Shown here: positions 1,447 to 53,345 of the stretch, in pieces
Numbering within the stretch: the first letter of the stretch is position 1
Layout of the letters: every line of letters starts with the position of its first letter
Origin: Mesostigma viride
Lineage: Eukaryota > Streptophyta > Mesostigmatophyceae > Mesostigmatales > Mesostigmataceae
Direction: 5' to 3'
Length of the DNA: 64,000 bases
Assembly (NCBI GenBank): GCA_009746045.1
Contig: RPFO01000065.1
Location: forward strand, 2,410,484-2,474,483
Notes under the pieces: generated by a model
What the model was told of the DNA's origin: nothing
Database searches by the model: none
The model's input: the letters and a program-made list of their open reading frames with translations, nothing else
Position numbers and translations under genes: made by a program

Positions 1447-1811
1447 TATGTGCATGCGTATGCATGCATGCCAATTGTATGCGTGTGTGCGTCCTCTAAC
1501 ACACAGCAAGAAAAGTCCTGAGAAGCAAGCATGGAAATAAAAAAAAGTCCTGAGAAGCAATTGGAAATAAGCGGTTACTTATTGTTAGATAAGCAGCTAC
1601 CCAAGAACCATGACATGCAGGAACTCTGATGTGTGTGACCAGATTGCACTTGCCCACCGGGTGAGGTGTGTTGCTGCTGTTAGCTGCATGCTCTCAGACG
1701 CAACCAAGGCATGCTGGCAGTCGTAGCATAGCCGGGAGGTCGAGAAAGAGATCAGGATTGAGAACTTTAGGGCGAGAAGAGATCAGGTTGACAAGATTTC
1801 GGTGTCCAGAC
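1447..1811. other. Gene-free spacer with a small tandem duplication
   Basis: No coding exon is recognisable between the two large microsatellites. A short direct duplication around an AAGTCCTGAGAAGCAA core lies at about 1,513-1,562, separated by an A-rich stretch. Nothing else is supported. Confidence 0.5.
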
Positions 1812-3149
1812 CCCCCTTCCCCCCCCCTTCTCTACCCCTCTCGCCCGCCCCCCCCCCCCCCTCCCTCTCCCCTCCCTCTCCCCCTCCCTCCCCCCTCCCT
1901 CCCCCCTCCCCCCCTCCCCCTCCCCCCTCCCCCCCTCCCTCCCTCCTCCCTCCCTCCTCCCCTCTCCCCCCCTCCCTCCCCCTCCCTCCCCCCTCCCTCC
2001 CCCCTCCCTCCCCCTCCCTCCCCCCCTCCCTCCCCCCTCCCTCCCTCCCTCCCTCCCTCCCTCCCTCCTCCCTCCCTCCCTCCCTCCCTCCCTCCCTCCC
2101 TCCCTCCCTCCCTCCCTCCCTCCCTCCCTCCCTCCCTCCTCCCTCCCTCCCTCCCTCCCTCCCCCCCCCCTCCCTCCCCCCCCCTCCTCCCTCCCTCCCT
2201 CCCTCCCTCCCTCCCTCCCTCCTCCCTCCCTCCCTCCCTCCCTCCCTCCCTCCTCCCTCCCTCCCTCCCTCCCTCCCTCCCTCCCTCCCTCCCTCCCTCC
2301 CTCCCTCCTCCCTCCCTCCCTCCCTCCCTCCCTCCCTCCCTCCCTCTCGATCCCTCCCTCCCTCGATCCCTCCCTCCCTCGATCCCTCCCTCCCTCGATC
2401 CCTCCCTCCCTCGATCCCTCCCTCCCTCGATCCCTCCCTCCCTCGATCCCTCCCTCCCTCCCTCCCTCCCTCCCTCCCTCCCTCCCTCCCTCCCTCCCTC
2501 CCTCCCTCCCTCCCTCCCTCCCTCCCTCCCTCCCTCCCTCCCTCCCTCCCTCCTCCCTCCCTCCCTCCCTCCCTCCCTCCCTCCCTCCTCCCTCCCTCCC
2601 TCCCTCCTCCCTCCCTCCGTCCCTCCCTCCCTCCCTCCGTCCCTCCCTCCCTCCCTCCCTCCTCCCTCCCGTCCCTCTCCTCCCTCCCTCCCTCCTCCCT
2701 CCCTCCCTCCCTCCCTCCCTCCTCCCTCCCTCCCTCCCTCCCTCCCTCCCTCCCTCCCTCCCTCCCTCCCTCCCTCCCTCCCTCCCTCCCTCCCTCCCTC
2801 CCTCCCTCCCTCCCTCCCTCCCTCCCTCCCTCCCTCCCTCCCTCCCTCGATCCCTCCCTCCCCTCCCTCCTCCCTCCCTCCCTCCCTCCCTCCCTCCCTC
2901 CCTCCCTCCCTCCCTCCCTCCTCCCTCCCTCCCTCCCTCCCTCCCTCCCTCCCTCCCTCCCTCCCTCCTCCCTCCCTCCTCCCTCCCTCCCTCCCTCCCT
3001 CCCTCCCTCCCTCCCTCCTCCCTCCCTCCCTCCCTCCCTCCCTCCCTCCCTCCTCCCTCCCTCCCTCCCTCCCTCCCTCCCTCCCTCCCTCCCTCCCTCC
3101 CTCCCTCCTCCCTCCCTCCTCCCTCCCTCCCTCCCTCCCTCCCTCCCTC
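1812..3149 (+). repeat. 1.3-kb (CCCT)n pyrimidine tract with higher-order 16-bp block
   Basis: A strand-asymmetric C/T tract with unit CCCT, interrupted by CCT and poly-C variants. At about 2,347-2,458 the array is reorganised into a 16-bp unit, CGATCCCTCCCTCCCT, present about seven times in tandem, with a single further CGATCCC at about 2,848. All six frames are open over much of the tract (S-L-P-P-like or G-R-E-like), which is an artefact of composition. Similar tracts lie at 29,721-30,336 (opposite strand) and 57,597-57,806. Confidence 0.95.
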
Positions 3150-12050: not shown

Positions 12051-12499
12051 TAATCCGCCGGGCCCAGAGGACAGATGGCCATGACGGTGTTGCGCCCATG
12101 CAGGACGAAAGCCAATTTGACTCTCCCCAAGGAGCAGAACAAAGGCAGTTGAGGATCATGCGCATGAACAACTTGAGTGCGGCGCTCTGGATTTGCACAC
12201 ACTCCTGGGTAGTTGGCGGGGTTGTCAGGGGAACCTTAGATATTGTGCAGCATAATACGTTATACGGTATGTAGCTGTGCTGCCACTCTGACAGGAATCG
12301 GCAGCGCGTCGGCTTGAAGCAGGATCTTGTTGCAGACGTCAAGCAGGAACCCCTTGAGCGCCGTCAGTTTAATCACTGGGGCGGGGGGCTGATCAGGTCT
12401 GACGGCGGCGTAGAAGCCGACTGAGTTGCTCGGTCTTGGTGAAGGGGGGTAGCCGATCGTCGGGGTCGGCTGGGGGTTACGTCAGGGGCGCGTACGTGT
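12051..12499. other. Unassigned sequence left of the LTR element
   Basis: About 450 bp with no gene I can support. It lacks the 143-bp block that precedes the right-hand LTR match, so the left LTR may be truncated here or the boundary rearranged. Confidence 0.4.
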
Positions 12500-13639
12500 A
12501 GTTGTCACGGACGCGCGCTATGTCATCCGGGCGCCCACTATGCACAAGACCGGTGACGTGCGCAAGGAATTTGTCTTCTACGCATTTTCGACAAAGGCTA
12601 GTGACCGGGGGGGGACACTAGCACTTGCAGCATAAGAGCGGACGAAAGTGTACGTGCACGCGCGCCGGGCCAGGCACAGCTGGGCGCGCAGCACTGACTT
12701 GAGCGGACGGCAGCACAAGTGTGCAGCGTCGAGAGGATCATACGCGTGTTAGTGGACAGCTGGAGCTGAAGCTGTACTGCTGGACTTCAACAGCGCCGAG
12801 GCTATTGACAGGCCAGGTGTCTTTGTGGTGTAGAATAGCGGGTCAACGTTATGAGGACTGGACAGAAAATGGAAAAGGACAATTTGCGGTGCGGAGCCAG
12901 ATCGCTGGAATGAATGCGAAATCGCTGGCAGCCCTAAAAAGGGATTTCTTCTAGAAAGGAACGATTAGACGCAATGTTTGCTGGGCCACTCACACGCAAG
13001 GTGTGAGCGTGCAGATTGTCTGAAGGATATTATGCTTCGACCTTGCTGGACGTGACTCAATGTCGGACATTCCCAGGGACAGAAATGCCGGAGCCTCTAG
13101 GAGATGAGATCGGCAACAGGGTAGCAATTTAGATTTGTCGGGATGCCTTCCTGCTTTTGTTGGCATGTGTGGTAGAAAGCCAGGACGGCAACTGGAATGC
13201 GGTTTCTATTCGCATGGTTCAGGCAGCAAGATAGTTTTGGCATTCCTGGCTGGACTGACAAGTGTGGCGTGTGTCATGCGTGTGGCATGACGAATGGTTT
13301 GGTTCATAGTCGAAGAGGACTCTCACGCAGCGTGTAGTCTCTTCGAGTCTCTCGTTAGTGGCCTTCGTGTTTCTCCCTTTCCTTGGGAGCAAGGCCGGTA
13401 GCATGTCATGGAGCGCTGCCTAACTGCGGGCTCGTGAGCATGGAGTGCATCGATATTGAGACTATCAACGTGTTGTAATTGTATTAACTTTCTCAATAAA
13501 CTCCGCATGTGCGGCTTCATCATCAGACTGTGCAAAGTATGTGTTTTGAAAGCATTATTCTATAGCAGGGGAGGCAATAAGGTGGTTATCAGGCACGAGG
13601 GACAGTTCCTTGTCCTCGGCTGAGAGCCCTCCTTTCTTT
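12500..13639 (+). repeat. 5' long terminal repeat (possibly 5'-truncated)
   Basis: Matches 21,951-23,089 with an offset of about 9,450. Differences seen: an 8-G versus 7-G run near 12,607, T/G near 12,778, G/A near 13,278 and C/T substitutions near 13,380 and 13,632. It contains TTCTCAATAAACTCC with an AATAAA at 13,495-13,500, a plausible polyadenylation signal. The match begins at AG-TGTCACGG and ends at TTTCTTT. Typical TG...CA termini are not obvious at both ends. Confidence 0.85.
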
Positions 13640-13965
13640 ACTCGAAGAGACTACCCGGTAGTCTGCTTCCTTCTGTTCGAAGCCAAGACGTTGGCTTTAG
13701 TGTTTAGCAACCATCAGCAGTACAGGGAACGGCCTGGCTGACAGTTTGTAAAGGAAGTGTCTTGAGACAGATTTTAAGAAAATAGAACTAGCCAGAATTT
13801 GCTGGCTCTTGTCTTTTTCTGGCAGGCTAGTCGAGTCGTTATCCTTGACACCTGTTATAAAGCCTTTGGTTGTTGCTTCTTCTCAGCGAAACCTAGGCTT
13901 GTTGGTTCTTGTTTTGCCCATCGGTCAGCTGGTGCATGCCACTGACGCGAGCGCAGACTCGAGCC

Positions 13966-15744
13966 ATGGCAGATGCAAATAGAGCAGATGCCGACACGTC
14001 CGCTCCGGGGTCGAATGGCGGGATTCCTCCCGCCGTACCCGCAGTGGGTGAGAGTCGCGACCAAGAAGCGCCGCTGAGTATGGTGGCGCTGTTCGCGCAG
14101 ATGCAAGCGCAGATGCAGCAACAGTCGCAACAGTTGCAGCAGCAATTGGCGCTGCAGATGCGGGAAGTGACCGACAGATTGGTGGCCGTAGAGGGTCGTC
14201 ATCTGCAGTCCACACCATGGGACGGGCAGGCATCGATGCCGGGCCCCAGTGGTGTTGCCGCGGAGCCGAGGGAGCGGGACCAGCCGCCAACCTCAGGTAA
14301 TGCGGCGGGAAGGGCTTCGATGGAACCGGGGGTTTTGGCTGGGTCGCTAACCCAACACGACTTGCTTGGTGAGGCGGATGGTCAGCCACGGGGCGAGTAT
14401 ACGCTGGCGCCCAGGCGCCTGCCTTTCGATCAAGCGCGAGACGGATTGCACGAGGAGAACGGGGCAGGGCTGGCGCGCGCGATGGACCCACACAGGGGTG
14501 CACCAGGACGCATGCTGCCAGGCGGGGCCTCAATTCCGTTTGGGCGAGGCGGTGGGGCGCTGACCGGCGGGTCGACTGCACGGTGGTCAAGTGTGCCAAT
14601 CGGGCGCATTCCGCCCATGGAGGACATAACCACGCCGCTGGCTTTCCGAGTACGGGAGGCAGCACGACCAAGCACGCTGGCGCAGGGACGCGCAGCTCAG
14701 CGACCGCCGGAGGATGCCGATGGGGTGCAGTACCCGCAAAGGGTGCGCCTCATACCGGAAGGCGCGAAGATGCCCACCCTACCACGGGTGGACATGCGCG
14801 AGAAGTTCTCCACAACCGGCAATCTGGCCACGCTGGCGCAGGCCTACAACGCGTACAAGTCATGGATTGATCTGCAATACATGACTACGCAAGGCGCTGT
14901 AATGCATGAGTTTGTGATGAACAACATGCATTTTTTCTTTCACGGCCTTACGCTGAGGCGAGTGGCTAGGCTGGTGGAGCAGTGGAGAGAGGTCTCGCTG
15001 TACACGCGTCACACGGACGTGTGGTTCGGCTTCGACGGGCGTGGCCAGCCCGACTATGACAACATCATGTATGGTGTCGACCCTGCCGAGGAACTGTGGG
15101 GCCTCCTTCGCCAGGAATACCCGGTGGAGACCATCAAGGCAGAGCGTGAGTGGCGCAGTTTCAAGATAGCCGAGGGTGAAACCCCGGAGCAATCTTACGA
15201 GCGCCTCATGGAGTTCGCCGGCGAAGTGGAGGACTGGTCCGAAAAGCTGGCGTGTCAGAAATGGCTGCAAGCGCTAGGCTCCAAGGAGATGGAGCTGCCC
15301 ACGCCGCCCAACGGCCAGCCGTGGCGATTGCGGTCACTGTGCATTGAGGTCAGGGCCATGATGCGACGACACGCGCAAGGCCGGATCTCGGTAAGCACGG
15401 TGGTGGCCGAGCTGCAGGCCAAGGTCGACGCGCTGACCAAGGCCAAGTCGGGTGAGTCGTCTGCCACAAGACAAGCGCGCCCGCAAGGCGGCCACGGTGC
15501 TAGCAGGAACCAAGGGGGGTCTCGCAACGCCTCATCGCATGATGCAACCCAGGGTAACGCCGCTGGCGGCAACAAAGACGCTGCCGCCCCGACGCGAGCT
15601 GGGGGGGCACGTCCTCACAGACGGGTACTAGGACGGATGCGCGCAAATCGGGCTGCTTCCTTTGCGACAAGGATGGGCACCTTAGTCGCGAGTGTCCAAG
15701 CCGCTGCACGAAGCCGCATGGGGCAGACACGAAGTGGCACCTGA
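13966..15744 (+). CDS. gag: Gag-like polyprotein of the Ty3/gypsy element
   Basis: The ATG at 13,966 (GAGCCATGG context) opens 592 codons ending in the TGA at 15,742-15,744. Gag forms the particle that packages the element RNA. The N-terminus is disordered, followed by a Gln-rich coiled-coil-like stretch (about residues 40-75). The middle is Pro/Gly/Arg rich. A conserved retrotransposon gag core runs from about residue 275 to 470, with a YKSWIDLQYMT segment, then an RQEYPVETIKAEREWRSFK segment and a WLQALG segment. The CCHC zinc knuckle expected at the gag C-terminus is not in this frame but in the next one (15,654-15,695). The last about 45 codons of this frame are therefore probably not the native tail. 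Confidence 0.85.
   Translation: MADANRADADTSAPGSNGGIPPAVPAVGESRDQEAPLSMVALFAQMQAQMQQQSQQLQQQLALQMREVTDRLVAVEGRHLQSTPWDGQASMPGPSGVAAEPRERDQPPTSGNAAGRASMEPGVLAGSLTQHDLLGEADGQPRGEYTLAPRRLPFDQARDGLHEENGAGLARAMDPHRGAPGRMLPGGASIPFGRGGGALTGGSTARWSSVPIGRIPPMEDITTPLAFRVREAARPSTLAQGRAAQRPPEDADGVQYPQRVRLIPEGAKMPTLPRVDMREKFSTTGNLATLAQAYNAYKSWIDLQYMTTQGAVMHEFVMNNMHFFFHGLTLRRVARLVEQWREVSLYTRHTDVWFGFDGRGQPDYDNIMYGVDPAEELWGLLRQEYPVETIKAEREWRSFKIAEGETPEQSYERLMEFAGEVEDWSEKLACQKWLQALGSKEMELPTPPNGQPWRLRSLCIEVRAMMRRHAQGRISVSTVVAELQAKVDALTKAKSGESSATRQARPQGGHGASRNQGGSRNASSHDATQGNAAGGNKDAAAPTRAGGARPHRRVLGRMRANRAASFATRMGTLVASVQAAARSRMGQTRSGT
15601..15607 (+). promoter_or_regulatory. G7 tract where gag passes into the pol frame (possible -1 frameshift site)
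   Basis: In the gag frame the tract reads GGG GGG G. One base back, the pol frame is open across it and runs straight into a CX2CX4HX4C knuckle (residues CFLCDKDGHLSREC, 15,654-15,695) and then pol. Either programmed -1 slippage or a one-base length change in the homopolymer explains this. A TGATG stop/start overlap at 15,742-15,746 would allow reinitiation but would leave the knuckle out of both products. Confidence 0.55.
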
Positions 15745-18700
15745 TGAACAAGTGTCCAGCCGCGGGCATCAAGACGGTCCACTTCGCCGAGATGGCGGGC
15801 AAGACCGACTCGATGGAAGCCCAGGTGGCTGCCATCAAGCATGGTGAGGAGGCGACGGCGCCCCCCAACCAATTCGAGACGGTGTACCGGGAGGACCCAT
15901 TCTGGGCGCCCATGCCGGGTGACGTCGAGATCAACGCTGCGGAGGCTACCAAAGGCAAGCAGGCACGCAGCCCGCTTTCTTTTCAGCAGGCACCCATGTT
16001 GCCTGCCGGGCAGTTGCCCGCGTCCTTTTCCATGCCGCTGGCTGGGGTGCAATCTGCTTTTGAGCATGCGAACCCTGCTGGGCTGGAGCAGCGTAGGCGA
16101 TTGGCGCCTGTGTACCCAATGCCGTTCATTGTGGACGTACCCATGTTTTCAGCACGGCAGGTGGTCGACACCTTCGGGCAGAAGGGGGTTGAGTGGCTGG
16201 GGTCGGTTGTGTCCGAGATCCAGTTGTTCGCAGATGGGCATGATGTGCGCACCTTGCGCAATTCTGAGTCCGTCACCTACGGGCGCCAGCCGGTAGAAGC
16301 CGCAGTGCCCGTGGTGCAAGCGGGAGTGGTCAGCACAAGTAGCCAGCAGCGCACTAGTGCAGTCCCCCAGGTTCCCACGGTGGTTCCATACCCCAATGGT
16401 GAGCCGTCCATGGCGTTCCAAGCAGTTGGAGCCTGTGGAGATGTATGGAGCGACATGGTGACATGTCCGTTGGTTGGCGCAGTCAAGCTTGATAGCGGTG
16501 CTCAGCCGCTAGTCATCAGCACGGACTTGGCCACCATGCTGAACCTGACCTACGAGAACGGTGGCTTAGTGGAAAGCCCCGTGTCTGTGTCAGGTTGGCA
16601 GGGTCCGGCTAGTAAGCCGTACGCTATGACGGCGGTTAAAGTCAACGTGATTTTCAATCCGTTGCGCGCCTCTAGCATGACCACCGTGTCCGCGTATGCG
16701 CTGGTGGTCAACAAGTGTGGATATTCCGCACTACTCGGGGTGGATGTCCTTGCTCGCGCCATGGTTCAGGTGGACTATAGGGCGGAGGAGGCATCTTACA
16801 TCCCTGATTGGGATGGGGCTGGCCTGAAGCGGGCCAGCGTGCCGGTCTCATGCTTCAGTTCTTCAGCCGGGGCTGCACGCCTCAACCCTTCCGCGGCTGC
16901 GGGCGTGGTGGAGGTCAGCATGGTGGAGGTACGGGCGGCGGGCTCATCGGCGTGGGACAAGCATCGGACGGTGCTGCCCCAGCCAACGGCGAGCATTGCC
17001 AAGATGCGCACGCAGTGGTCGCTGGATGCTGTGACGTCCACGCGGCAGCTGGCTATGCGCAAGCGGGTAACTGAAGCCGTCATCACCATTCCTCAGATGG
17101 CCAGCCATGGCCTCACTTTGCTGCAACCGGGTGTCTCGGAGGCCCAAGGTAATTTTTCTGCTGCAATCTTACCGCAGGCCCCTGATTTTGCCAAGGGTGC
17201 GGTAGTGTTGGAACTGTTTGCGGGGATCGGAGGGGGCATTGCAGGCTTTTTGGCCGCAGGCGGCGTGTGCCGTAAACTCATCGCGGTAGAGCCATCGCAC
17301 AAGGCGCGTCAGGTGTACTTCAGTCACTGTGGCGTGTTGTCGCGAGAGTATCCCGCGCAGTTTCCGCCATCAGCATGGCGTGACCCGTTTGGGGAATGTC
17401 CTCAAGATATCCGAGCCATCGGTGAGGTGCAGGTGCAGCAGTTGTTGCGCAGGCATCATGCCATCGACTTGGTAATTGCGGGTTGGGAGTGCCAGGGCCT
17501 GAGCCAGGCAGGGCAAGGGCGGGGGCTAGCCGATCCGCGTAGCGCGCTGTTCTGGGAACTGTTGCGTGTGGTGGGACTGTTGCAGTCGCGTCAGCCCCAT
17601 CCGCCTGCGTATCTGTTTGAGAACGTTGTGGCGGGTGACAGCCCACATCAGGCGGTGCGGGAGGACTGGGCTACAATCGTGGCACTCCTGGGGGAGCCCA
17701 TCGTGTGTGACAACGCAGGGCTGGGTGGGCTCACGCATCGTTTGCGTGCCTATTGGACCAACGTGGCGTGTGCGACCGATGTGCAGGCGGTCTTGGGGGC
17801 CGTAGCAAGGCAGCATCCGAGTGTGTCTGCGGAGGTAGCATTGCCTTCCCACCTAGTCACGCAGAAGGTGGATAGCGAGGATCGCCCACCGTATGCACGC
17901 GTCAACCGGGTCGGGAGCCCCATGTGTGCACTGCCGACCCTGGTCAGTTACCAAGGGTCGACAGCATACCGTGATCGGGGTAAGGGTCTCGTTTGGGACA
18001 CTACCACCGGTCTGTTGGTGCAGCCACCCGCAGAATTTCGTGAGGCCAGCATGGGTTTTCATGTCGGGGCCTCGGCGCTGCCGGGCGTGCTCGAGAGTGA
18101 GCGCTGGTCTTTGATAGGCCAGGCTATGTCGGTGTTGCAGGTCGGGTATGTGCTGCTTGCATCGGTTGCCGTGCGCCAGTCTGGGGGGGCGTCCCCAGCC
18201 AATCCGCCTCAGCAGGTTGAGGCGCGCGCAGCCAAACTGAAGCGCCCTGCAGCGACGGGGACTTCATCAGCATGGGGGTGGCGTCTGCGACAGGTGTGGA
18301 CTATCATTCTCATGACCGCCCTGCTGACCAGCACCGTGCTGGCCGGCGAGCCCACGCTGCATCGGGTAATACACCGTGCGGCACGCGAGGCTCCGGCGGT
18401 GGGTGTCACACCAGGCGTGGCAGCCTTTTCCTTGTTCCACGACGATGCGGCTAGGGCGCCGCATCTTGAGGCACATGCGGTAGCTGTGGGTGATCCCGCG
18501 GATACGCACCCCTGGGCTATTGGCGAACACCTTTCTGATGCGCAGCGCTCAGCCATGCTAAAGTGGCTAGGCACTGCAAGGGGGGCCTTCGCTTTCACAA
18601 GTGATGAACTGGGGTGTTTCAATGGTGGGACCATGCGTGTTCCATTGGACACTGACACCCCTTTGTTCCGACGCCAGCATCGCCTGAGTCAGGCCGAGTT

Positions 18701-21700
18701 GGATTTTGTAGCCGAGCAATGCAAGGAGTTAGAGGATGCCGGTATCATCAGGCAATCTTCCTCCAGCTATGCCGCTGCCGTTGTCGTTGCGCCCAAGAAG
18801 GACGCTATCACCGGGGCATGGACGGGTATGCGCATGGCCACCGATCTGCGGTTGCTGAATGCACACACACCCGTGGACCGTTACCCCATGCCACGTGTGG
18901 ATGATGTCCTGGATAAGATATCTCCTCATGTGAAGTTTGTGTCCTCGCTGGACCTGCGTAGCGGCTTTCATCAGATCGCAGTTGCGCCGGAGGATCAGCG
19001 GAAGCTTGCATTCTGGGGGGGCGGCAATTTGTATGAGTGGGTGCGCATGCCCTTTGGGCACCGCAACGCTAGTGCTGTTTTCCAACGAGCTATGGACAAA
19101 GTGCTTGCAGGTCTTCCTTTCGCCGCTTGTTACATTGATGATGTAATCGTCTTTAGCGCGACATTTGAGGAGCACCTGGCGCACTTGGAGCAGGTTCGCT
19201 TGGCTCTCGAGGAGCATAATATGCGGCTGCACCCTGAGAAGTGCAAGTTCGCCCAGCGGACCCTCTCATTCCTTGGTCATCAGATTGTGCCGGGTGGCCG
19301 GACGCCTGATGCCGCCAAGGTCGAATCCATTGTGCAGGCCGCCGTACCCACGGATGTCTCAGGGGTGCGGGCGTATTTGGGTTTGGCTGGCTATTACCGA
19401 GGTTACATTGAGAACTTCAGCAGCAAGGTGAAGCCCTTGACCGAGTTACTCAAGAAGGGGTGCGTGTGGGCGTGGGGTCCCGCACAGCAACGCGCCATCG
19501 AGACAATCAAGCAGGAGCTCACGTCGGCCCCGATTCTGCGCGCCCCTGACTATGCTTTGCCGTTTGTGTTATATACCGACTGGTCCAAGGTAGGACTGGG
19601 TGCGGTCTTGGCGCAAAAGGATGGTGATGGGCGCGAGCACGTTATTGCTTATGCTAGTCGCAGCAACAACCCAGCGGAGAGCCGGTATTCTTCCTATGAG
19701 GGGGAGGCACTGGCTGTGGTGTGGGCCATCAAGCACTTTCGCCCGTATTTAGTTGGGCGCGTGTTTACTCTGGTGACAGACCACCAGCCGCTTCAGTGGC
19801 TAATGACCAACACCAACCTGACGGGTAAGCTCGCCCGATGGGCCATGATTATCCAGGAGTACCACATGACCATTGTGCATCGGGCCGGCAAGGACCATGT
19901 CAACGCCGATGTGCTATCCCGATACGCCATGCCTACCACTGTTGACCACACTGGAGCCCGGGCCATGGGTGCCGAGGGCTCGTCGGGTTCTGTGGTCTTT
20001 GTGAACGCTGCTGGGTATGCGGCCGACGATGAGGAGGAGGCGTGGTGGCGCAGTGTCGAGTACTCTGTGGCGGACTTCGGCATCAGCGACGACCCGGTGC
20101 GGCCGTCGCCATTCACGCCATCCAAAGCTGTGTGCGCTATGGAAGAGGGTAGGTCTCTGTCCTTTGACATTGATCCTTCTCTGCAGCAGCTGATCGCTGT
20201 GCAGGCTCTCTTAGCGCGTAGCTCTCTTGCTGATTGCTACACCGCTGATATCTGGCTAGATGGTCGAGTTTTGGAGCAAGTGCAGGGTGCTGTCTTGACT
20301 CCTACTCCAGTCGATTGGACTCCTGCTCAGAAGGCGACGGAGTTGAACAGGGTGCAGCACAGGGCTGCAACCTATGGTTGGGAAGATGGGGTTTTGTACA
20401 AGCTGTTGGGCAAGCGTAGGGTGGTCGTCCCACCGCCTGACAAGCGCGTTGCTATAGTGCAGGCGTACCACGAGCGGTATGGTCACTTGGGTGGCAATCG
20501 CACGCTCAGCCTCGTACGGACCAGCTATTGGTGGAATAACATGCGACACACAGTGGCCCAGGTAGTGGCCAGCTGTGTCCCGTGTGCTCGAACCAAGGCT
20601 AACTTTAGCGCAGATCATGGTGCCAAGGAGCTGATGTCGCTTCCCATCAAGGGCTTGTTTTATCGCTGGCACGTCGATCTGTGCGGGCCGTTTCAGGAGA
20701 GCCCTGACGGCAACCTCTATGTCATGGTATGCGTGGAGAGCTTTAGCAAATGGGTTGAGTTGATCCCCATTGCTGACAAGCATGCCGCTACCACAGCGAA
20801 GCATTTTGCAGACATCATCACCAGGTTTGGGGCTCCCGCGGAGGTAGTCACGGACCAGGGTGGTGAGTTCAGGGGTGAGTTCCAGGAGTTGCTGGATGGA
20901 TGTCTTATTGATCACCGTCGCACTTCTCGGGAGCATCCTCAGGCCAATGGTTTGGCTGAGAGATTGGTGCAGACCGTCAAGCAGGCGCTGCGCAAGTGGA
21001 GCCTGCAGGTGCCGGAGTCGGCCAGGTGGGATCGCGAGTTGGCATGGATTGCCATGGGTTATCGCATGTCTCCCCAGGAGTCTCTCGCTACCTTCTCCCC
21101 GTATTTCCTTCTGTTCGGGCGTAATCCTCTTTTGCCTACGGAGGCACAGGTTGCGCACCCCGAACCCATGGCCTTCGACAACGCTCAGCAATTTTTGGTT
21201 GAGGTGCTGGCCAGGGCAGAGACTTTTAAGAAGGTCATGCCCATCGCGATGAACAACTTGTTCATTGCTCAGCACAGGGACTCCCTGCGTTACGCTCAGC
21301 GCCGGGGGGGCGCATACATGGCTCGCCAGCTGCGGTTTAGGCCAGGGCAGTATGTTTTCCTGCGCACTCAGCTGAAGCACACTTTGGATGTGGAGGCGGG
21401 GCCCACCATTTTGCGCATTGTGGCTATCAAACCATCGGGAGTGGCAATTTTGGAGGGCGCCGACGGGAGCCGTACGACAGACAACCTCAGCAATCTCAGT
21501 CCCTGCTCACTGCCCAATTTGGTCCACGACCTCCAACCGCACACATCTCGCCGAGTCAAGGACGCCCAGTGTCAGGTTTGTCACCGGGTCGATCAGGCGG
21601 AGTCCATGTTATTGTGTGATCAGTGTAACTGTGGTTGGCACATGCAGTGCTTGCAGCCCGTGGTCACCAGCATTCCGGAGGGGGATTGGTTTTGTCCAGT

Positions 21701-21782
21701 GTGCACCGCTGCGCAGTTTACCTCCCGCAGCTTGACTGCGGTCACCGCTGCCCTTGTCTTGGTACGATCGCTGTCTTCGTGA
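15744..21782 (+). CDS. pol: Pol polyprotein: protease, C5-DNA methyltransferase, RT, RNase H, integrase, PHD finger
   Basis: An uninterrupted frame of 2,012 codons. Residue numbers count from the ATG at 15,744. Retropepsin-like protease: D250-S-G and LLGVD at about 330. DNA methyltransferase: see its own entry (487-805). A hydrophobic stretch lies at about 851-867. Reverse transcriptase: about 965-1,230, with FVSSLDLRSGFHQ and the YIDD catalytic box at 1,130-1,133. RNase H: about 1,270-1,392, with D1279, a YSSYEGEALAVVW segment and a TDHQPL segment. Integrase: H1576/H1581/C1611/C1614 zinc module, then D1645, D1704, E1739 with the classic 35-residue D-E spacing. An SH3/GPY-like stretch (RPGQYVFLR) follows. 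PHD finger: 1,943-1,987. All catalytic acids are present, so the element may be active. Confidence 0.93.
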   Translation: MNKCPAAGIKTVHFAEMAGKTDSMEAQVAAIKHGEEATAPPNQFETVYREDPFWAPMPGDVEINAAEATKGKQARSPLSFQQAPMLPAGQLPASFSMPLAGVQSAFEHANPAGLEQRRRLAPVYPMPFIVDVPMFSARQVVDTFGQKGVEWLGSVVSEIQLFADGHDVRTLRNSESVTYGRQPVEAAVPVVQAGVVSTSSQQRTSAVPQVPTVVPYPNGEPSMAFQAVGACGDVWSDMVTCPLVGAVKLDSGAQPLVISTDLATMLNLTYENGGLVESPVSVSGWQGPASKPYAMTAVKVNVIFNPLRASSMTTVSAYALVVNKCGYSALLGVDVLARAMVQVDYRAEEASYIPDWDGAGLKRASVPVSCFSSSAGAARLNPSAAAGVVEVSMVEVRAAGSSAWDKHRTVLPQPTASIAKMRTQWSLDAVTSTRQLAMRKRVTEAVITIPQMASHGLTLLQPGVSEAQGNFSAAILPQAPDFAKGAVVLELFAGIGGGIAGFLAAGGVCRKLIAVEPSHKARQVYFSHCGVLSREYPAQFPPSAWRDPFGECPQDIRAIGEVQVQQLLRRHHAIDLVIAGWECQGLSQAGQGRGLADPRSALFWELLRVVGLLQSRQPHPPAYLFENVVAGDSPHQAVREDWATIVALLGEPIVCDNAGLGGLTHRLRAYWTNVACATDVQAVLGAVARQHPSVSAEVALPSHLVTQKVDSEDRPPYARVNRVGSPMCALPTLVSYQGSTAYRDRGKGLVWDTTTGLLVQPPAEFREASMGFHVGASALPGVLESERWSLIGQAMSVLQVGYVLLASVAVRQSGGASPANPPQQVEARAAKLKRPAATGTSSAWGWRLRQVWTIILMTALLTSTVLAGEPTLHRVIHRAAREAPAVGVTPGVAAFSLFHDDAARAPHLEAHAVAVGDPADTHPWAIGEHLSDAQRSAMLKWLGTARGAFAFTSDELGCFNGGTMRVPLDTDTPLFRRQHRLSQAELDFVAEQCKELEDAGIIRQSSSSYAAAVVVAPKKDAITGAWTGMRMATDLRLLNAHTPVDRYPMPRVDDVLDKISPHVKFVSSLDLRSGFHQIAVAPEDQRKLAFWGGGNLYEWVRMPFGHRNASAVFQRAMDKVLAGLPFAACYIDDVIVFSATFEEHLAHLEQVRLALEEHNMRLHPEKCKFAQRTLSFLGHQIVPGGRTPDAAKVESIVQAAVPTDVSGVRAYLGLAGYYRGYIENFSSKVKPLTELLKKGCVWAWGPAQQRAIETIKQELTSAPILRAPDYALPFVLYTDWSKVGLGAVLAQKDGDGREHVIAYASRSNNPAESRYSSYEGEALAVVWAIKHFRPYLVGRVFTLVTDHQPLQWLMTNTNLTGKLARWAMIIQEYHMTIVHRAGKDHVNADVLSRYAMPTTVDHTGARAMGAEGSSGSVVFVNAAGYAADDEEEAWWRSVEYSVADFGISDDPVRPSPFTPSKAVCAMEEGRSLSFDIDPSLQQLIAVQALLARSSLADCYTADIWLDGRVLEQVQGAVLTPTPVDWTPAQKATELNRVQHRAATYGWEDGVLYKLLGKRRVVVPPPDKRVAIVQAYHERYGHLGGNRTLSLVRTSYWWNNMRHTVAQVVASCVPCARTKANFSADHGAKELMSLPIKGLFYRWHVDLCGPFQESPDGNLYVMVCVESFSKWVELIPIADKHAATTAKHFADIITRFGAPAEVVTDQGGEFRGEFQELLDGCLIDHRRTSREHPQANGLAERLVQTVKQALRKWSLQVPESARWDRELAWIAMGYRMSPQESLATFSPYFLLFGRNPLLPTEAQVAHPEPMAFDNAQQFLVEVLARAETFKKVMPIAMNNLFIAQHRDSLRYAQRRGGAYMARQLRFRPGQYVFLRTQLKHTLDVEAGPTILRIVAIKPSGVAILEGADGSRTTDNLSNLSPCSLPNLVHDLQPHTSRRVKDAQCQVCHRVDQAESMLLCDQCNCGWHMQCLQPVVTSIPEGDWFCPVCTAAQFTSRSLTAVTAALVLVRSLSS
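17202..18160 (+). other. C5-cytosine DNA methyltransferase domain inside pol
   Basis: Residues about 487-805 of pol. Motif I (SAM binding): VVLELFAGIGGG at 487-498. Motif IV: GWECQGLSQAGQGRGL at 580-595, catalytic Cys583. Motif VI: FENV with E626. Motif VIII: HRLRAYW, R666/R668. A target-recognition-like region (ALPTLVSYQGS) begins about 727. Motif X: ERWSLIGQAM at 786-795. These are the ordered motifs of enzymes that transfer methyl from SAM to cytosine C5. The usual Pro before the catalytic Cys is Glu582 here, so activity cannot be taken for granted. Methyltransferases captured by eukaryotic retrotransposons have been reported, including in algae and dinoflagellates; the host family this one came from cannot be settled by eye. 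Confidence 0.88.
21570..21704 (+). other. C-terminal PHD finger of pol
   Basis: A C4-H-C3 pattern is complete: C1943, C1946, C1958, C1961, H1966, C1969, C1984 and C1987, with the usual Trp before the last Cys pair (GDWFCPVC). PHD fingers read histone H3 tails, often methylated or unmodified K4. Many Ty3/gypsy elements use a chromodomain at this position to steer integration; by analogy this PHD may target the integrase. That role is inference. Confidence 0.88.
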
Positions 21783-21799
21783 TGGGGCCGGTCGCCAGC

Positions 21800-21810
21800 G
21801 AGGGGGGGAA
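21800..21810 (+). promoter_or_regulatory. Polypurine tract
   Basis: GAGGGGGGGAA lies 18 nt after the pol stop, where plus-strand DNA priming is expected. If it marks the LTR start, the 3' LTR begins at about 21,811 (TCATGGGACAG), not at 21,951. Confidence 0.6.
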
Positions 21811-21951
21811 TCATGGGACAGGTCCTCGCCCACCCCACAGGGCATGCAGTTAAGGCAGGCACATCAGCTCAGCTCATTTGGGTTTTACCAAATTAAGCTG
21901 AGTGGCCAGCCGCCATGGTGGCGCCGGAGATTGTGGCACGCAGACGCGACA
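21809..21951 (+). repeat. 143-bp block repeated at 23,179-23,321 (copy A)
   Basis: By eye identical to 23,179-23,321. It lies between the polypurine tract and the start of the LTR match. It is absent upstream of the left LTR, so either it is the 5' part of the LTR (lost on the left) or it is 3' internal sequence. Confidence 0.8.
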
Positions 21952-23089
21952 GCTGTCACGGACGCGCGCTATGTCATCCGGGCGCCCACTATGCACAAGA
22001 CCGGTGACGTGCGCAAGGAATTTGTCTTCTACGCATTTTCGACAAAGGCTAGTGACCGGGGGGGACACTAGCACTTGCAGCATAAGAGCGGACGAAAGTG
22101 TACGTGCACGCGCGCCGGGCCAGGCACAGCTGGGCGCGCAGCACTGACTTGAGCGGACGGCAGCACAAGTGTGCAGCGTCGAGAGGATCATACGCGTGTT
22201 AGTGGACAGCTGGAGCTGAAGCTGGACTGCTGGACTTCAACAGCGCCGAGGCTATTGACAGGCCAGGTGTCTTTGTGGTGTAGAATAGCGGGTCAACGTT
22301 ATGAGGACTGGACAGAAAATGGAAAAGGACAATTTGCGGTGCGGAGCCAGATCGCTGGAATGAATGCGAAATCGCTGGCAGCCCTAAAAAGGGATTTCTT
22401 CTAGAAAGGAACGATTAGACGCAATGTTTGCTGGGCCACTCACACGCAAGGTGTGAGCGTGCAGATTGTCTGAAGGATATTATGCTTCGACCTTGCTGGA
22501 CGTGACTCAATGTCGGACATTCCCAGGGACAGAAATGCCGGAGCCTCTAGGAGATGAGATCGGCAACAGGGTAGCAATTTAGATTTGTCGGGATGCCTTC
22601 CTGCTTTTGTTGGCATGTGTGGTAGAAAGCCAGGACGGCAACTGGAATGCGGTTTCTATTCGCATGGTTCAGGCAGCAAGATAGTTTTGGCATTCCTGGC
22701 TGGACTGACAAGTGTGGCGTGTGTCATGCATGTGGCATGACGAATGGTTTGGTTCATAGTCGAAGAGGACTCTCACGCAGCGTGTAGTCTCTTCGAGTCT
22801 CTCGTTAGTGGCCTTCGTGTTTCTCCCTTTTCTTGGGAGCAAGGCCGGTAGCATGTCATGGAGCGCTGCCTAACTGCGGGCTCGTGAGCATGGAGTGCAT
22901 CGATATTGAGACTATCAACGTGTTGTAATTGTATTAACTTTCTCAATAAACTCCGCATGTGCGGCTTCATCATCAGACTGTGCAAAGTATGTGTTTTGAA
23001 AGCATTATTCTATAGCAGGGGAGGCAATAAGGTGGTTATCAGGCACGAGGGACAGTTCCTTGTCCTCGGCTGAGAGCCCTCTTTTCTTT
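21951..23089 (+). repeat. 3' long terminal repeat
   Basis: Pairs with 12,500-13,639; see there for the differences. AATAAA at 22,945-22,950. The match ends at TTTCTTT, followed by unrelated flank and, 90 bp later, by a second copy of the 143-bp block. Confidence 0.85.
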
Positions 23090-23178
23090 GTCGCGTTTAC
23101 GTGCCATTATATCCTAGCCTATCACTTGGAAGGCATATCCATAGCAATAGAGTACTCTTGTGTGTGATCCACTATATT

Positions 23179-23321
23179 AATCATGGGACAGGTCCTCGCC
23201 CACCCCACAGGGCATGCAGTTAAGGCAGGCACATCAGCTCAGCTCATTTGGGTTTTACCAAATTAAGCTGAGTGGCCAGCCGCCATGGTGGCGCCGGAGA
23301 TTGTGGCACGCAGACGCGACA
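23179..23321 (+). repeat. 143-bp block, copy B
   Basis: Identical by eye to 21,809-21,951, then diverges abruptly into LINE endonuclease-linker sequence. It may be the remnant of an older LTR of the same family, truncated by the LINE fragment, or the product of recombination at the insertion. Confidence 0.75.
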
Positions 23322-23329
23322 TAGTCCTG

Positions 23330-27900: not shown

Positions 27901-29718
27901 GTCGTGGTGGTGGTGTGTGGGGGTGGGGGGGGTGGGGGGAGTGGGGGGGGTGGGACCAGGGAGAGGGGGAGGGATAATATGAAGAGATTAGCAGAGAAGG
28001 AGACGCGAGGCAGTGGGCTGAGGATGATGCTTGCAAGAGGACGGCACACATGGCACCATGAGGGGGCATCCGAGAGAGCCAGGAATCACCCTTGGGTTGG
28101 CACAATGGCGATGATGGCCGGGGAGGTCACAATGGCGGCCATGGAGACATGGCGGCCCTCCCTCATTGGGAGCGCATGCGAGCACAAACGGACGCCAAGT
28201 CAGCATGTGCAGGGCTAAAAGAGGATAGCAGCGAATACTGGTCAAGAGGGCTAGGATGATACAGTGGCCAACAGTTCAAGAGGCATGCCCCTGCAGACCT
28301 CCCCCCTTCCCTGCCAACAGGGAACATTATGTATAGCTGCTATCCAGCTTAGCGGCCTGTGCCCCCCGTCTTCACCTATGAACGCATTCCATCCCTCACA
28401 TCTGATGCATACGTCGATCGGGGCAAAATAAAACCGCGACAAACTAGAGGCCCGAAACATTGAACACCGTTGCCAGCTGGCAAGCCCTGGGTCGGCCCAT
28501 TCATCCAGGTTGTCGCACCCACCTGCCCCTGCATGGTCATGATGAACACGGTGGGCGACCGGTTGCACACGACCAGCTGCTCGGTGTTCTTGGGGAAGAT
28601 GTGCACGCTGTTGGCCGCCACCTCGCGCCCCTGGTGGCACGGCATGCACATGCGGGCACGCACGTAGGCACGGACAAATGCCAGAGTCATGCAAGCAATT
28701 CAGCACACCTTCACGCATACACGCCACGAGGGCAGTCGTGAAGCAGGGGGACCGGGATGGAGGCAGCCCGAGGCAACACCTGCACGCAAGCCCCTGCCTT
28801 CAAAAGGGCCATGTGGAAGGGCCTTGCCCACAAGTTGCATCATCCAGCGGCACTAATCTGGCTGGGAGCAGCCCGCAAAGGTGATGCCTGCAGTCCCCCA
28901 CGCGAGGGGTGAGGCGGGTGTAAAGCGTCATGAACGGCGGTTGTATGATGCGGGTACACATAAAACAAGATGCAAACACCCAGCATTGTTACACCGTCCA
29001 GCATAATTCGTGTGGGTGTTTTATTAGTGTGGGTTAACAATCAGAGCGGGCCACACTATCCTTGGTATCCTCCACAATATAGCTACGTAGTTTTGGAAAT
29101 CAGTGTCTGTCGGTGTGGCGCGTGCTGATCATGGAACACATTTTCCTAGCACGTTTTCCATCTTGTGATGCATGCAAGGCATCTGTCTTGATGAGCTACA
29201 TACTCAAAGCCGGTGTCAATCTCAAACAGGGTTGCCTACTTGACCTGGTTACTAGGAACAGCATACGCTGCCCACGCTACTTCGATACACCGCCGATAGT
29301 GTGGGTGCGCAAGTAGTGTGGCTCCCCAAAACACATCGGTTTGAAATACGGTGGCCCACACAAAATTATGCTGGGCAGAGGAGTGGTGAGGGGACGATGG
29401 GCGAGACCAGAGAACAGGAAGCAAAGCACGCCCGTTTTACGACAATGTGGTCGCATTCACCTGCCCATTTCCACCTCTGCGCTGCACACACCTGCCTGGT
29501 TCCAGCCTCTACTCGGCACCCACCCACCCAGCTTTCGCCTCAGCTTGTCACCCACTCACCCATCTTCCAGCCTCTACTGGACACCCATCTTCCACCCACC
29601 GTCCAGCCTCGGCTCGACACTCACCTGGGTTGGCTGCGGTGGCCGGAACGTGTGGAGGCATTCGGTGCTCTTCGAGTCCCACACCTGCGGGCATAGGGGG
29701 GGGGGGGGGGGGGGGGGG

Positions 29719-29815
<97 letters not shown>

Positions 29816-32800
29816 AGGGAGGGAGGGAGGGAGGGAGGAGGGAGGGAGGGAGGGGAGGGAGGGAGGGAGGGAGGGAGGGAGGGAGGGAGGGAGGGAGGGA
29901 GGGAGGGGAGGGAGGGAGGGAGGGAGGGAGGGAGGGAGGGAGGGAGGGAGGGAGGGAGGGAGGAGGGAGGGAGGGAGGGAGGGAGGGAGGGAGGGAGGGA
30001 GGGAGGGAGGGAGGGAGGGAGGGAGGGAGGAGGGAGGGAGGGAGGGAGAGGGAGGAGGGAGAGGGAGGGAGGGAGGGAGGGAGGGAGGAGGGAGGGAGGA
30101 GGGAGGAGGGAGGAGGGAGGGAGGGAGGGAGGGAGGAGGGAGGGAGGGAGGGAGGGAGGGAGGGAGGGAGGGAGGGAGGGAGGGAGGAGGGAGGGAGGAG
30201 GGAGGGAGGGAGGGAGGGAGGGAGGGAGGGAGGAGGGAGGGAGGGAGGGAGGGAGGGAGGGAGGGAGGGAGGGAGGGAGGGGAGGGAGGGAGGGAGGGAG
30301 GGAGGGAGGGAGGGAGGGAGGGAGGGAGGGAGGGAGCAAACAGTCCCGGTCGCCGGTGATGGCTTCTGTGAGGCATACAGTCAAGGCTAATTATATTGTT
30401 GACAAGCATGCCAACAGCCAAGCATACAACAGGGGTATGCTGAAGATGAGGCCCACATGCTGATGTCAGCAGAGACAGGGGAGGGTGCAGCACTGGGGCT
30501 TTGGACATTGGTAAGCAAGGGCCAAAGGCCTTGTGACAGGTGGCAGCAGTGAGCATGTATGCCGCACAAATCGCAGCTGATGGGGATAAAGTGGCAATGC
30601 TGGCGGCAAGGTGGTGAAGGCATGACTTTGAAGTGCGCAACTGCCAAAATCCAGCCAGGCGCTACAGTATTCCATGCGCTTGTCTTTGCAGCTGCAACAC
30701 TTGTGTTCCAAAACCAGCCATGCATGCTAAGCACAATCCATGGCAAACAGGATCGTGCTTTTGCATCTTGTATGGTACAAGGGTGCTGTCCTAGGGTGAC
30801 AAGAATACGGGAGACAAGGGTGTGGCAAGGAGGCCAGGGTGAGCGGAGGGATGGGGACAAAGGTGTGGAAGAATTTGACGCAAACTTTCAGATTCCCGTG
30901 GGTCCCCAACACTGTGGCTTTCGCGCTCCATGCTTCAAGGCTGTGAGCCGTAGCCACATGTGGCTTGGGGCAGACAACTCCCACCCCACCTGTACCATCG
31001 CCAGTGTGCTTCCCGTCCTCACCTCTCCTCCACCCCCGCCTTGGCGGCACGCGCATGCCAGCGCAACAGATTCCAAACCCCTGCTCAGCTTCATGGTGCA
31101 TGCCCCCCCCCCCCCCACCCCCCCCCCCCCTTTCATGTTGCAGTCCCCCACCCAACCCACCCACCCACCCACCTTGATGGTGCACTGTCCAACCCCACCC
31201 ACCCACCTTGATGGTGCCGTCGCTGGACGCGCTGATCACGCGCCCGCCGTCGCCCGTGTAAATCGCGCAGTTGACGAACGAGGAGTGGCCGCGGAACTCC
31301 TTGAGCATCTTGCCTGACTTGAGGCCGTGCACGCTGGGGGCAAGCGGAGGGGGTGAATGGGTGAAAGGGGTAGGGGGTAGGGGGGGGGTGGCAACATCGC
31401 ACGCATGGCAACAGCATCTTGCCCAACTTCAGGCCTTGAACGCTGGGGGTAGGGTGTGGGTGGGCATACAACCATACGCCACGATGTGCCAGCAACCTTG
31501 CTATTGGTCACCCAAGCAGCACGGTCTTGTGCCAGGGCACGCAGACGTGGCGCAGCTGCGCATGCCTGCCAGTGCCTTGTCCACTCGAATGCCTTGTCTG
31601 CTCTAATGCCTCGTGCCGTTCAAAAGAACCCAAACCCTTTTACCCCCAATTCAACAATGTGGCCCGATGAGCAGGTCAGCCAGCGCTTGCATGGGCGTGA
31701 CACACATCACCTGCTTGTGTCACCTTTGCATGACAGGTGTAATGTGCATGGGCAAGCGGCCATGAATGCCACCAATTGCGCCACTTTGTATAAAACGATG
31801 CACTTGGCGGTGCTTACCAAGACTGCGCATGCACATACCTGCGTAGGCGCAGCAGCTACGTACGGCGCGCAGCAGCTACATCCGACCCTTGTTCCCCAAG
31901 AGGCACCGTACTCCAAAACTGGCACCATAAACAGCACACAATCATGGACACACTCGCCATGGAGCAGGCGAAGCCAGCAAGCAATGCGAGCTGGCTGAGG
32001 GCGGCGCATGAGCCTCACCGTATGGTGGTGTCGAAGGAGGCAGATAACAGCTGGCTCCCGTCCCAGGAGAAGGAGAGCGACGTCACGCCCTGCGCGTGCG
32101 CCTTCTCCACTTTGCGCAGGCACTGGCCCGTGCGCAGCCGCCAGACCTGAAGGGGGGCCATCAGGCGCTCGCCAGCATTAGGGGGGCGGGAGCAGGGCAG
32201 GAGCGAGGAAGGTGGCATGCCAAAAGTGCGTTCCACGTGTGGGTTACGTGGTAGGGCAGATATGAGCCCACGAGGGCAGTCAAGTGGACAAGAGAGATCT
32301 GCTGACGTAGAGACCAACCAATCGAGCGCCGTGCCAATCATTGTTTATATTAACCCTCCCCCCTTCAACGTTAATCTTGGTGGAATCATCCAGGTTCTCA
32401 TTCCCCTCCCCCCCCCCCCCACATTGCCAATCTCGACCAGTCCACCAACGCCCCACCTTGCCCTTTTTGGCATCATTCACATTGTCATTGTCAACCCCCC
32501 TTGTTCTCACCTTGATCTTGCCGTCCTGGGAACCGGACGCGACCATCTCGCTGTCGCGGCTGAAGGCAAGGCTCAGCACCGAGTCCTCGTGCATCATGAA
32601 CTTATCCTGCAGACGGTGGGGGGGAGGGGCAGAGGTGTAGGCAGGCAACACATGCAGGCACAATGAGGCATAAGGCGATGAGGCGGGACAGGGCCTAGCG
32701 CATTGTCCAGCGAACAGATGGTCTAGAAAGGAATGAGCGCCGATGGACAAACGCAGACGTGAGGATAACCACGCCCAACATGGGGGATCTGCGCGCCTGA

Positions 32801-51275: not shown

Positions 51276-51637
51276 TGCATGTTTCGCTTTCAATAGGTAA
51301 GCTTTTGTGACATTTCTGCATTCGTCAGTGTCCAACCTGCGTGTGTCGGTGTCAGCATTTCTCCTTGCCCTTAGTGCTAATCCATTACCTGTCATATCAA
51401 TTCCAGGATTGAATCTGTTACTCCCTTTCTGCACCGGCACATCCTTGACTTTTGCTGCTCATCAATCGGCCTGATGGATGTTGCTTGATGCGAAAATGCT
51501 GTCAGCATTGAATGGAGCGCAGTGGGAAGTTGCAAATGTGCGCATGCTAATAAGATCTGGAACATGGGTCGCGTCGTCTATTTCTCTTTCTAATGCGCCA
51601 GCATCTAATGTAGCTTGCCCACGTACTGTTGGCTGCA

Positions 51638-53295: not shown

Positions 53296-53345
53296 GTGCT
53301 GCATCTTTTGCTGGCTGAACACTTCTGGCTGCATCACGCTGGCAG

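Follow-up and report, generated by a model that had tools for sequence, protein, structure and literature searches.

Why a transposon should carry the enzyme for a transposon-silencing mark is the question raised by a retroelement of the alga Mesostigma viride. The element lies in a stretch of 64,000 nucleotides (assembly GCA_009746045.1, contig RPFO01000065.1, positions 2,410,484 to 2,474,483, forward strand), here called the window, whose numbering is used throughout. It is a recently active Ty3/gypsy retrotransposon. Its pol gene encodes a C5-cytosine DNA methyltransferase (MT) that is of the Dnmt3 class by sequence profile and structure model, and ends behind the integrase (IN) in a PHD finger. 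The best overall explanation, to which we give an even chance, is that the MT methylates the element itself, whereas the PHD finger tethers the integrase to nucleosomes.

The coding part of the element consists of a gag-like open reading frame (ORF) and pol, with the following features.
13936..15744, + strand: gag-like ORF, first ATG at 13936, open frame 13897-15744 (ORF reading)
15558..21782, + strand: pol open frame of 2074 codons; the ATG at 15744 gives 2012 aa (translation)
15654..15695, + strand: zinc knuckle of CCHC type, CFLCDKDGHLSREC, encoded in the pol frame ahead of its ATG (read from the translation)
16461..16778, + strand: aspartic protease (PR) region with LDSGAQ (weak Pfam match of 13.8 bits and family profile)
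17193..18188, + strand: C5-cytosine MT, Dnmt3 class (Pfam PF00145, profile, AF2, Foldseek)
18621..19313, + strand: reverse transcriptase (RT) with YIDD (Pfam, motif)
19473..19913, + strand: RNase H (RH) (Pfam)
20430..20960, + strand: integrase H2C2 zinc domain and rve core with D1645, D1704 and E1739 (Pfam, motif)
21261..21548, + strand: C-terminal integrase module, which we take to be GPY/F-like (conserved across the family; structure model)
21570..21704, + strand: C4HC3 PHD finger (Pfam, sequence and fold relatives)

An initial annotation of the same DNA had described an intact frame of 2,012 codons (15744-21782, +), and the frame indeed contains no internal stop and holds protease, C5-MT, RT, RNase H, integrase and PHD finger together. 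Pfam models above the cut-off are DNA_methylase (residues 488-628, 42.2 bits), PHD (1943-1987, 35.5 bits), RVT_1, two RNase H models, Integrase_H2C2, zf-H2C2, and rve. The protease match falls below the cut-off; its LDSGAQ site is at residue 249. The integrase residues had been named correctly (the last two are 35 apart), YIDD is found at 1130, and the PHD finger at the C terminus of Pol is complete according to Pfam. All MT motifs that had been listed are present (LELFAGIGG at 489, GWECQ at 580, FENV at 625, HRLR at 665, and IGQAMS at 791), with ECQ instead of PCQ in motif IV, a variant that is frequent within the family. The gag-like ORF gave no match in a Pfam scan. Only the start of the frame had to be corrected, as it is open from 15558, overlaps the gag-like ORF, and holds the CCHC knuckle before the ATG, which itself overlaps the gag stop as TGATG. 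This long open frame and the TGATG overlap suggest that Pol is made either by a frameshift, in which case the knuckle would be included, or by stop-restart.

The element is no one-off chimera or product of an assembly join, the two cases in which the initial annotation would have lost its point. The 440 Mb genome (2243 contigs) was searched and only the best candidates were scored, so that older copies are under-sampled. From 5731 first-look candidates of a whole-protein search, all 23 scored copies, on 22 contigs, were 100% identical over 2012 aa and free of stops, and other listed relatives carry the MT as well. At the DNA level, the MT was 100% identical over 1009 bp in 40 of 40 scored copies (315 candidates). 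Six of the first eight loci, the window copy included, have exactly the pol sequence of the window; L002 differs from it at 3 sites and L008 at 4, all of them third codon positions and three common to both. A more divergent copy, L049, shows 20 pol substitutions, 16 of them at third codon positions, and a one-base deletion. In L049 (C58), no more than 85 bp upstream of pol match the gag region of the window; a different gag is joined to the same pol. With identical and intact scored copies, the element may still be active in an alga that can be cultured.

Assignment of the MT to the Dnmt3 class rests on a profile match to DNMT3A (E 1.7e-22) and on an AF2 model (pLDDT 91.5, pTM 0.90), for which DNMT3 entries made up 50 of the 50 Foldseek matches listed. 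The conservation check proposed in the initial annotation became possible through a second family in the same genome (L043-L045), in which one ORF encodes gag and PR and the next MT, RT, RNase H and IN; a PHD finger is present in the single copy whose sequence was read as far as the 3' end. Between the two families the MT shows 65.4% amino-acid identity (RT 81.4%, RNase H 87.8%, IN 74.1%), with pN 0.234 and pS 0.727. These values correspond to dN 0.28 and a dS of about 2.6, which is near saturation, and to a rough ratio of about 0.11. Selection on the MT is clearly purifying despite the near-saturated dS.

The initial annotation had also considered two features exceptional, namely the placement of the MT between protease and RT and its pairing with a PHD finger. 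Relatives were collected by a search with the MT region (28 matches) and a search with the integrase-PHD region (272 matches, of which the best 120 were compared). Named hosts among the integrase-PHD matches listed are Chlamydomonas, Tetrabaena, Pleodorina, Astrephomene, Haematococcus, and Klebsormidium. The order of domains was determined in 144 proteins, window protein included, with domain profiles iterated on these same 144 at E 1e-3, a procedure on which the weak MT calls in a decayed group depend. The MT, which was not in the query, was matched in 104 of the 120 listed integrase-PHD relatives; the PHD finger was found in 118 of the 120, a count biased by its being part of the query. Among the 104, 12 have the MT before RT and 82 have it after RNase H; in 10 it could be assigned to neither position. 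Twelve of the 16 MT-less relatives start less than 155 residues before RT, and such proteins could have their MT in an upstream ORF, because five PR-MT ORFs (P0002, P0004-P0006, P0008) suggest a split of this kind. The view that these features are exceptional is not supported: the same order occurs in a Klebsormidium protein and the surrounding group, and MT and PHD stand together in 115 of the 144 proteins.

Quick, unrooted trees were used to compare the histories of the MT and the remaining pol domains. The MT tree included 119 of 124 aligned rows (P0028, P0029, P0042, P0046, and P0051 were dropped; P0029 and P0051 have the MT before RT), and the five PR-MT ORFs, which end before RT, were assigned beforehand to the MT-before-RT group. 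One group (SH-aLRT 100) comprises seventeen MT-before-RT rows, with the window and Klebsormidium, and a second comprises 14 decayed MTs, namely 13 without the catalytic Cys and the long-branched P0047. The RT-RH-IN tree covered the 116 of 144 proteins that have all three domains. A branch with support 100 divides it. On one side are 14 rows with the MT before RT, 13 without an MT and one with a decayed MT; on the opposite side are the rows with the MT after RNase H, two more without an MT and eleven with a decayed MT, of which nine form a single clade. The two MT orders separate cleanly in both trees, and the MT may either have moved once or have been gained twice from related sources. For 82 proteins with all six domains, decayed MTs excluded, MT distances track those of the other domains (rho 0.57 for IN, 0.53 for RNase H, 0.44 for RT) as well as these agree among themselves (0.38 for RT-IN, 0.43 for RT-RNase H). 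One relative, P0017, has an extra C-terminal stretch (residues 2046-2084) with DPFAGSGT and SPPF-like motifs and a weak D12 adenine-MT match of 17.7 bits, below the cut-off, and similar motifs occur in P0021. The P0017 polyprotein possibly carries a second DNA methyltransferase.

Histone specificity of the PHD finger was considered from sequence and fold. Its closest solved sequence relatives are BAZ2B, Lid/KDM5, BAZ2A, WSTF, and ATXR5, and its likeness is to readers of unmodified H3K4 (BAZ2A/B, KDM5/Lid, ORC1b). In the fold search, the top rows by E-value, PHF1/MTF2 Tudor-PHD constructs, give a poor superposition (rmsd about 13), and BAZ2A bound to unmodified H3K4 superposes at 1.7-1.9 A over about 50 columns; the two-domain model of the integrase C-terminal module and PHD finger is loose (pTM 0.44). 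The position that we take to be the methyl-lysine cage Trp is Gly in 125 of 130 family members. The finger is predicted to be of the H3K4me0-reading type, nearest to BAZ2/KDM5 by sequence and fold and without the aromatic cage Trp. The initial annotation had proposed that the PHD finger steers integration to particular histone states; steering by H3K4me3 is the less likely form of this idea, because the finger resembles readers of unmodified H3K4 and the cage position is mostly Gly. In the relative P0135 (residues 1426-1544), a PHD finger and a chromodomain are adjacent behind the integrase, and an MT is present too.

The complete element is larger than the pol ORF. The Ty3/gypsy assignment of pol in the initial annotation stands, but the full element (12503-23321) and its split direct repeats had been overlooked. 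It is flanked by TAGT target duplications and has the layout A1-gag-pol-polypurine-B1-GC-A2-B2, where A and B are repeats that each occur twice.
12499..12502, no strand: left target-site duplication TAGT, same letters as 23322-23325
12503..13639, + strand: split direct repeat A1, left terminus TGTCACGG..., 1137 bp; recurs as A2 with 4 mismatches and 1 indel
13640..13659, + strand: putative primer-binding region, adjoining A1 (ACTCGAAGAGACTACC...; based on position)
21797..21808, + strand: polypurine tract AGCGAGGGGGGG, adjoining B1 here and in 8 other loci covering the pol 3' end
21809..21951, + strand: split direct repeat B1, 143 bp, 100% identical to B2
21952..21953, + strand: GC dinucleotide inside the internal joint CGCGACA-GC-TGTCACG, absent from the element ends
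21954..23089, + strand: split direct repeat A2, 1136 bp, repeat of A1
23090..23178, - strand: 89 bp inserted between A2 and B2, a reverse-complemented B-like repeat from a different split-repeat family
23179..23321, + strand: split direct repeat B2, right terminus ...ACGCGACA, repeat of B1
23322..23325, no strand: right target-site duplication TAGT, matching the left copy

Eight loci of the window family cover the 3' end, and five have both standard ends, TGTCACGG...ACGCGACA; C111 (tandem on the left), C133 (fused to another family) and C1469 (no left end within 601 bases) were left out of the end analysis. Perfect 4-bp target duplications flank all five (TAGT, CATG, CCCA, CCCT, CCAG). A second-family copy has the same order A1-coding-B1-A2-B2 and the duplication CTTG, so that all six copies with both ends are flanked in this way. 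TG...CA ends, a DDE integrase and a short target duplication are those of Ty3/gypsy elements. Two full identical long terminal repeats (LTRs) are absent: only A stands on the left and B-A-B on the right, in the five window-family copies and in the family-2 copy. Such split direct repeats are at least as unusual as the MT-PHD content.

Joints between the repeats are informative about how the element is copied. The exact A|B joint was found 76 times genome-wide and never in a reversed control. Three more joints have 1-30 nt of filler, one with +1 nt and two with sequence from beside A1, which corresponds to the first 8-9 nt and 14 nt of the putative primer-binding region. Because the A repeat preceding these two starts at flanking DNA, they are solo forms and may have arisen by deletion. 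Of the eight loci, four have an exact A2|B2 joint and four a variant one: the window (89 bp from the other family's B-like repeat, matching L010:40-129 at 98.9% over 90 bp, where the context is polypurine-B-GC-A), C1413 (+1 nt), C1469 (A shortened), and C133 (foreign B). The B1-GC-A2 joint is constant across the eight except for one substitution 14 bases into A (L008). At C133, a foreign A-like stretch of 1040 bp with a putative end abuts B-A-int on the left (int, internal part), and the arrangement B-A-int-B-A lies between this sequence and the start of a foreign B, with no target duplication. L010:40-1171 and L002:8847-8936 are what remains of a third family with split repeats (polypurine-B-GC-A), which is joined to the window-family copy at C133. 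At L009 (C111), two units stand in tandem with one common B-A repeat.

A1 and A2 are not interchangeable. A run of G has eight residues (G8) in 5 of 5 A1 copies and seven (G7) in 10 of 10 A2-context copies, and two solo A repeats are also G8; the difference lies in a homopolymer and is weak as a single site. At alignment columns 965 and 996, both C1391 copies, which have different duplications, show T/T in A1 vs C/A in A2, a difference that rests on two copies, the window copy being equal at these columns. A1 and A2 of the family-2 copy differ by two mismatches and no indel. From these shared differences the two repeats seem to be inherited separately, which argues against canonical LTR replication, as this would erase them.

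Two replication routes can be compared on this basis. By the first, which we consider doubtful, canonical LTR cDNA with B-GC-A at both ends would be joined into circles or chains, and the integrase would cut the B-GC-A joint to yield A1-int-B1-A2-B2. The start of B at the polypurine tract and the end of A at the primer side fit this route, as do the arrangement at C133, the tandem at C111, and an A2|B2 joint that varies in half of the loci next to a nearly constant B1-GC-A2. Against it stand the distinct differences kept by A1 and A2 and the exactness of the A|B joint as a genome-wide rule; the foreign A end at C133 is also only putative, for which reason our estimate was lowered slightly, from tentative to doubtful. 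By the second, near full-length RNA would be copied in a PAT/DIRS-like manner, a circle would be closed on the B1-GC-A2 template, and a DDE integrase would take the place of the tyrosine recombinase. The repeat order A-coding-B-A-B is the same as in DIRS, family 2 shares the layout, and A1 and A2 are apparently passed on separately. This route does not fit what is seen at C133 or the variability of the A|B joint, and with an AATAAA close to position 993 of A, the RNA would terminate within A2. This second route is itself tentative and is slightly ahead because of the separate inheritance of A1 and A2.

From the anatomy, the identical copies, the purifying selection, the 4-bp duplications, and the split repeats, we infer a possible course of events. 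Pol would be produced through a frameshift or stop-restart. The MT within Pol would act in the particle or nucleus on its own cDNA or a fresh insertion and write 5mC, presumably at CG, thus giving the new copy an early mark. The host could maintain this mark by DNMT1, as its genome contains a DNMT1 gene with RFD, BAH and MT domains (L046:3865-9000, - strand). In the 713 aa used as query, the encoded protein agrees at 100% with one under the portal code jgi/Mesvir1, taken to stand for Mesostigma viride, a streptophyte alga. The PHD finger would bind nucleosomes with unmodified H3K4 and hold the integrase there, as the chromodomain does in chromoviruses. The integrase would use ends equivalent to an opened B-GC-A joint of joined or circular cDNA, from which GC is removed and TG...CA inserted. 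The most likely function appears to be that the MT methylates the DNA of its own element, either ahead of insertion or directly after it, and that the PHD finger tethers the integrase. A writer combined with an H3K4me0 reader echoes DNMT3, which is paired with its own ADD domain.

Several points weigh against this proposal. The CpG of pol is undepleted (o/e 0.81; flanks 0.72-0.82), and there is therefore no deamination trace. An MT under purifying selection in an element with undepleted CpG could instead act against the host, by modifying host or competing DNA or by titrating silencing factors, with the PHD finger only assisting integration; a Pol polyprotein can work in trans. This alternative seems unlikely to us, as fusion to Pol, whose substrate is the element cDNA, favours action in cis. 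A second point is that 13 of 124 aligned MTs (P0048, P0063, P0065, P0075, P0076, P0083, P0087-P0089, P0094, P0097, P0118, P0132) no longer have the catalytic Cys, yet belong to proteins that retain long pol ORFs. These MTs usually lack the motif VI Glu too and include Chlamydomonas reinhardtii and other volvocine proteins; the C. reinhardtii P0083 no longer scores as DNA_methylase in Pfam. Catalysis would be dispensable at least there, and the MT might be mainly structural or bind RNA or cDNA, with catalysis secondary and sometimes lost. We regard this as the least probable reading, because the Cys is retained in 111 of the 124, because the window copy has all motifs, and because catalytic Cys, motif VI Glu and motif VIII H-R-x-R are invariant in 26 chosen rows (alignment A2 of full-length relatives, with no decayed ones). 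Furthermore, no methylation was detectable in yeast for the MT of KnitGypsy-Dnmt3, the published element closest to this one, a result that the authors of that study considered inconclusive (PMC5890265, drawn on here and below for part of its content). Finally, the apparently separate transmission of A1 and A2 speaks against the opening of B-GC-A by the integrase. Self-methylation with nucleosome tethering is still the explanation that we prefer.

Other methyltransferase genes were observed in the Mesostigma assembly. A second DNMT of 1059 aa is encoded at L047:3302-6478 (- strand). Many standalone-looking C5-MTases (L013-L042 among them) score 140-175 bits and include several sets of identical copies; they are a candidate for another mobile element or a virus-derived or contaminant MT family. 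The window also contains long tandem or satellite arrays at 326-1447, 1811-3149, 29695-30336, and 51629-53302, some of which are common to 1.8-3.1 kb and 29.7-30.3 kb in inverted orientation.

The element has consequences for several general questions. Two MT positions and repeated MT decay provide a natural experiment on why a transposon carries a transposon-silencing mark. Split repeats with DDE ends make it harder to separate LTR from DIRS replication by a simple rule, and the divergence of A1 from A2 cannot safely serve as an insertion clock here. With identical intact copies in a culturable alga, self-methylation and PHD-guided insertion are directly testable. A broader proposal, which we put forward only tentatively, is a third insertion route for DDE retroelements, with a B-GC-A attachment site inside the repeat, split repeats left behind, and A1 and A2 inherited separately. 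It would be combined, in Streptophyta and Chlorophyta, with a writer-reader pair of Dnmt3-class MT and H3K4me0-type PHD finger that marks new copies and aims at unmodified H3K4.

Comparison with known systems places the element among Ty3/gypsy retrotransposons. Its Pol has the order PR-RT-RNase H-IN with Gypsy-type domains, and Ty3 Gag-Pol was the best PDB profile match of alignment A2. Chromoviruses carry a chromatin reader at the same end of the integrase, but theirs is a chromodomain; a Pfam scan of the window protein found PHD and no Chromo. PAT/Ngaro-type DIRS elements share the split direct repeat order, from which the window element differs by having a DDE integrase, 4-bp duplications, and ends of the form TG...CA; a Pfam scan of two ORFs found rve and no tyrosine recombinase. 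SymbioDIRS-Dnmt3 combines, like the window element, a Dnmt3 in Pol with A-coding-B-A-B repeats, but has a tyrosine recombinase, and its MT was active on CG in yeast (PMC5890265). Most similar is KnitGypsy-Dnmt3 of the streptophyte alga Klebsormidium nitens, which likewise has a Dnmt3-class MT within a Gypsy Pol, a DIRS-like repeat order according to the legend of Fig. 4, and an MT with Ka/Ks below 0.2 (PMC5890265); the window element has this MT placement, this repeat order and purifying selection on the MT. The K. nitens protein P0027 (KFL_009030040, partial), which has the order PR-MT-RT-RH-IN and groups with the window, is taken to be of this kind. In the same 2018 paper, de Mendoza already proposed self-methylation of the new copy by such elements (PMC5890265), and an opinion paper of 2019, as far as the part used here extends, describes DAM- and DCM-encoding Ty3/Gypsy and DIRS retrotransposons in green algae, charophytes, and others (PMC6338049). 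The word PHD was absent from the text of PMC5890265 in a word search, and the portions of that paper used here describe neither termini nor target duplications nor a replication mode of the Gypsy element. Titles and abstract starts in the open PMC literature yielded no Gypsy element with MT plus PHD and no such element in Mesostigma, and split repeats with a DDE integrase only in the legend of PMC5890265. The MT-bearing Gypsy kind and its odd repeats were thus already known from Klebsormidium. As far as these searches reach, three points are new: the pairing with a PHD finger, the occurrence of two MT positions and of decayed MTs among the relatives, and a split-repeat element that has DDE ends and target duplications. 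The element links what was observed in Klebsormidium in 2018 to a transposon group that is widespread in the green lineage, in which the MT takes two positions and has decayed repeatedly and most listed relatives have a PHD finger.

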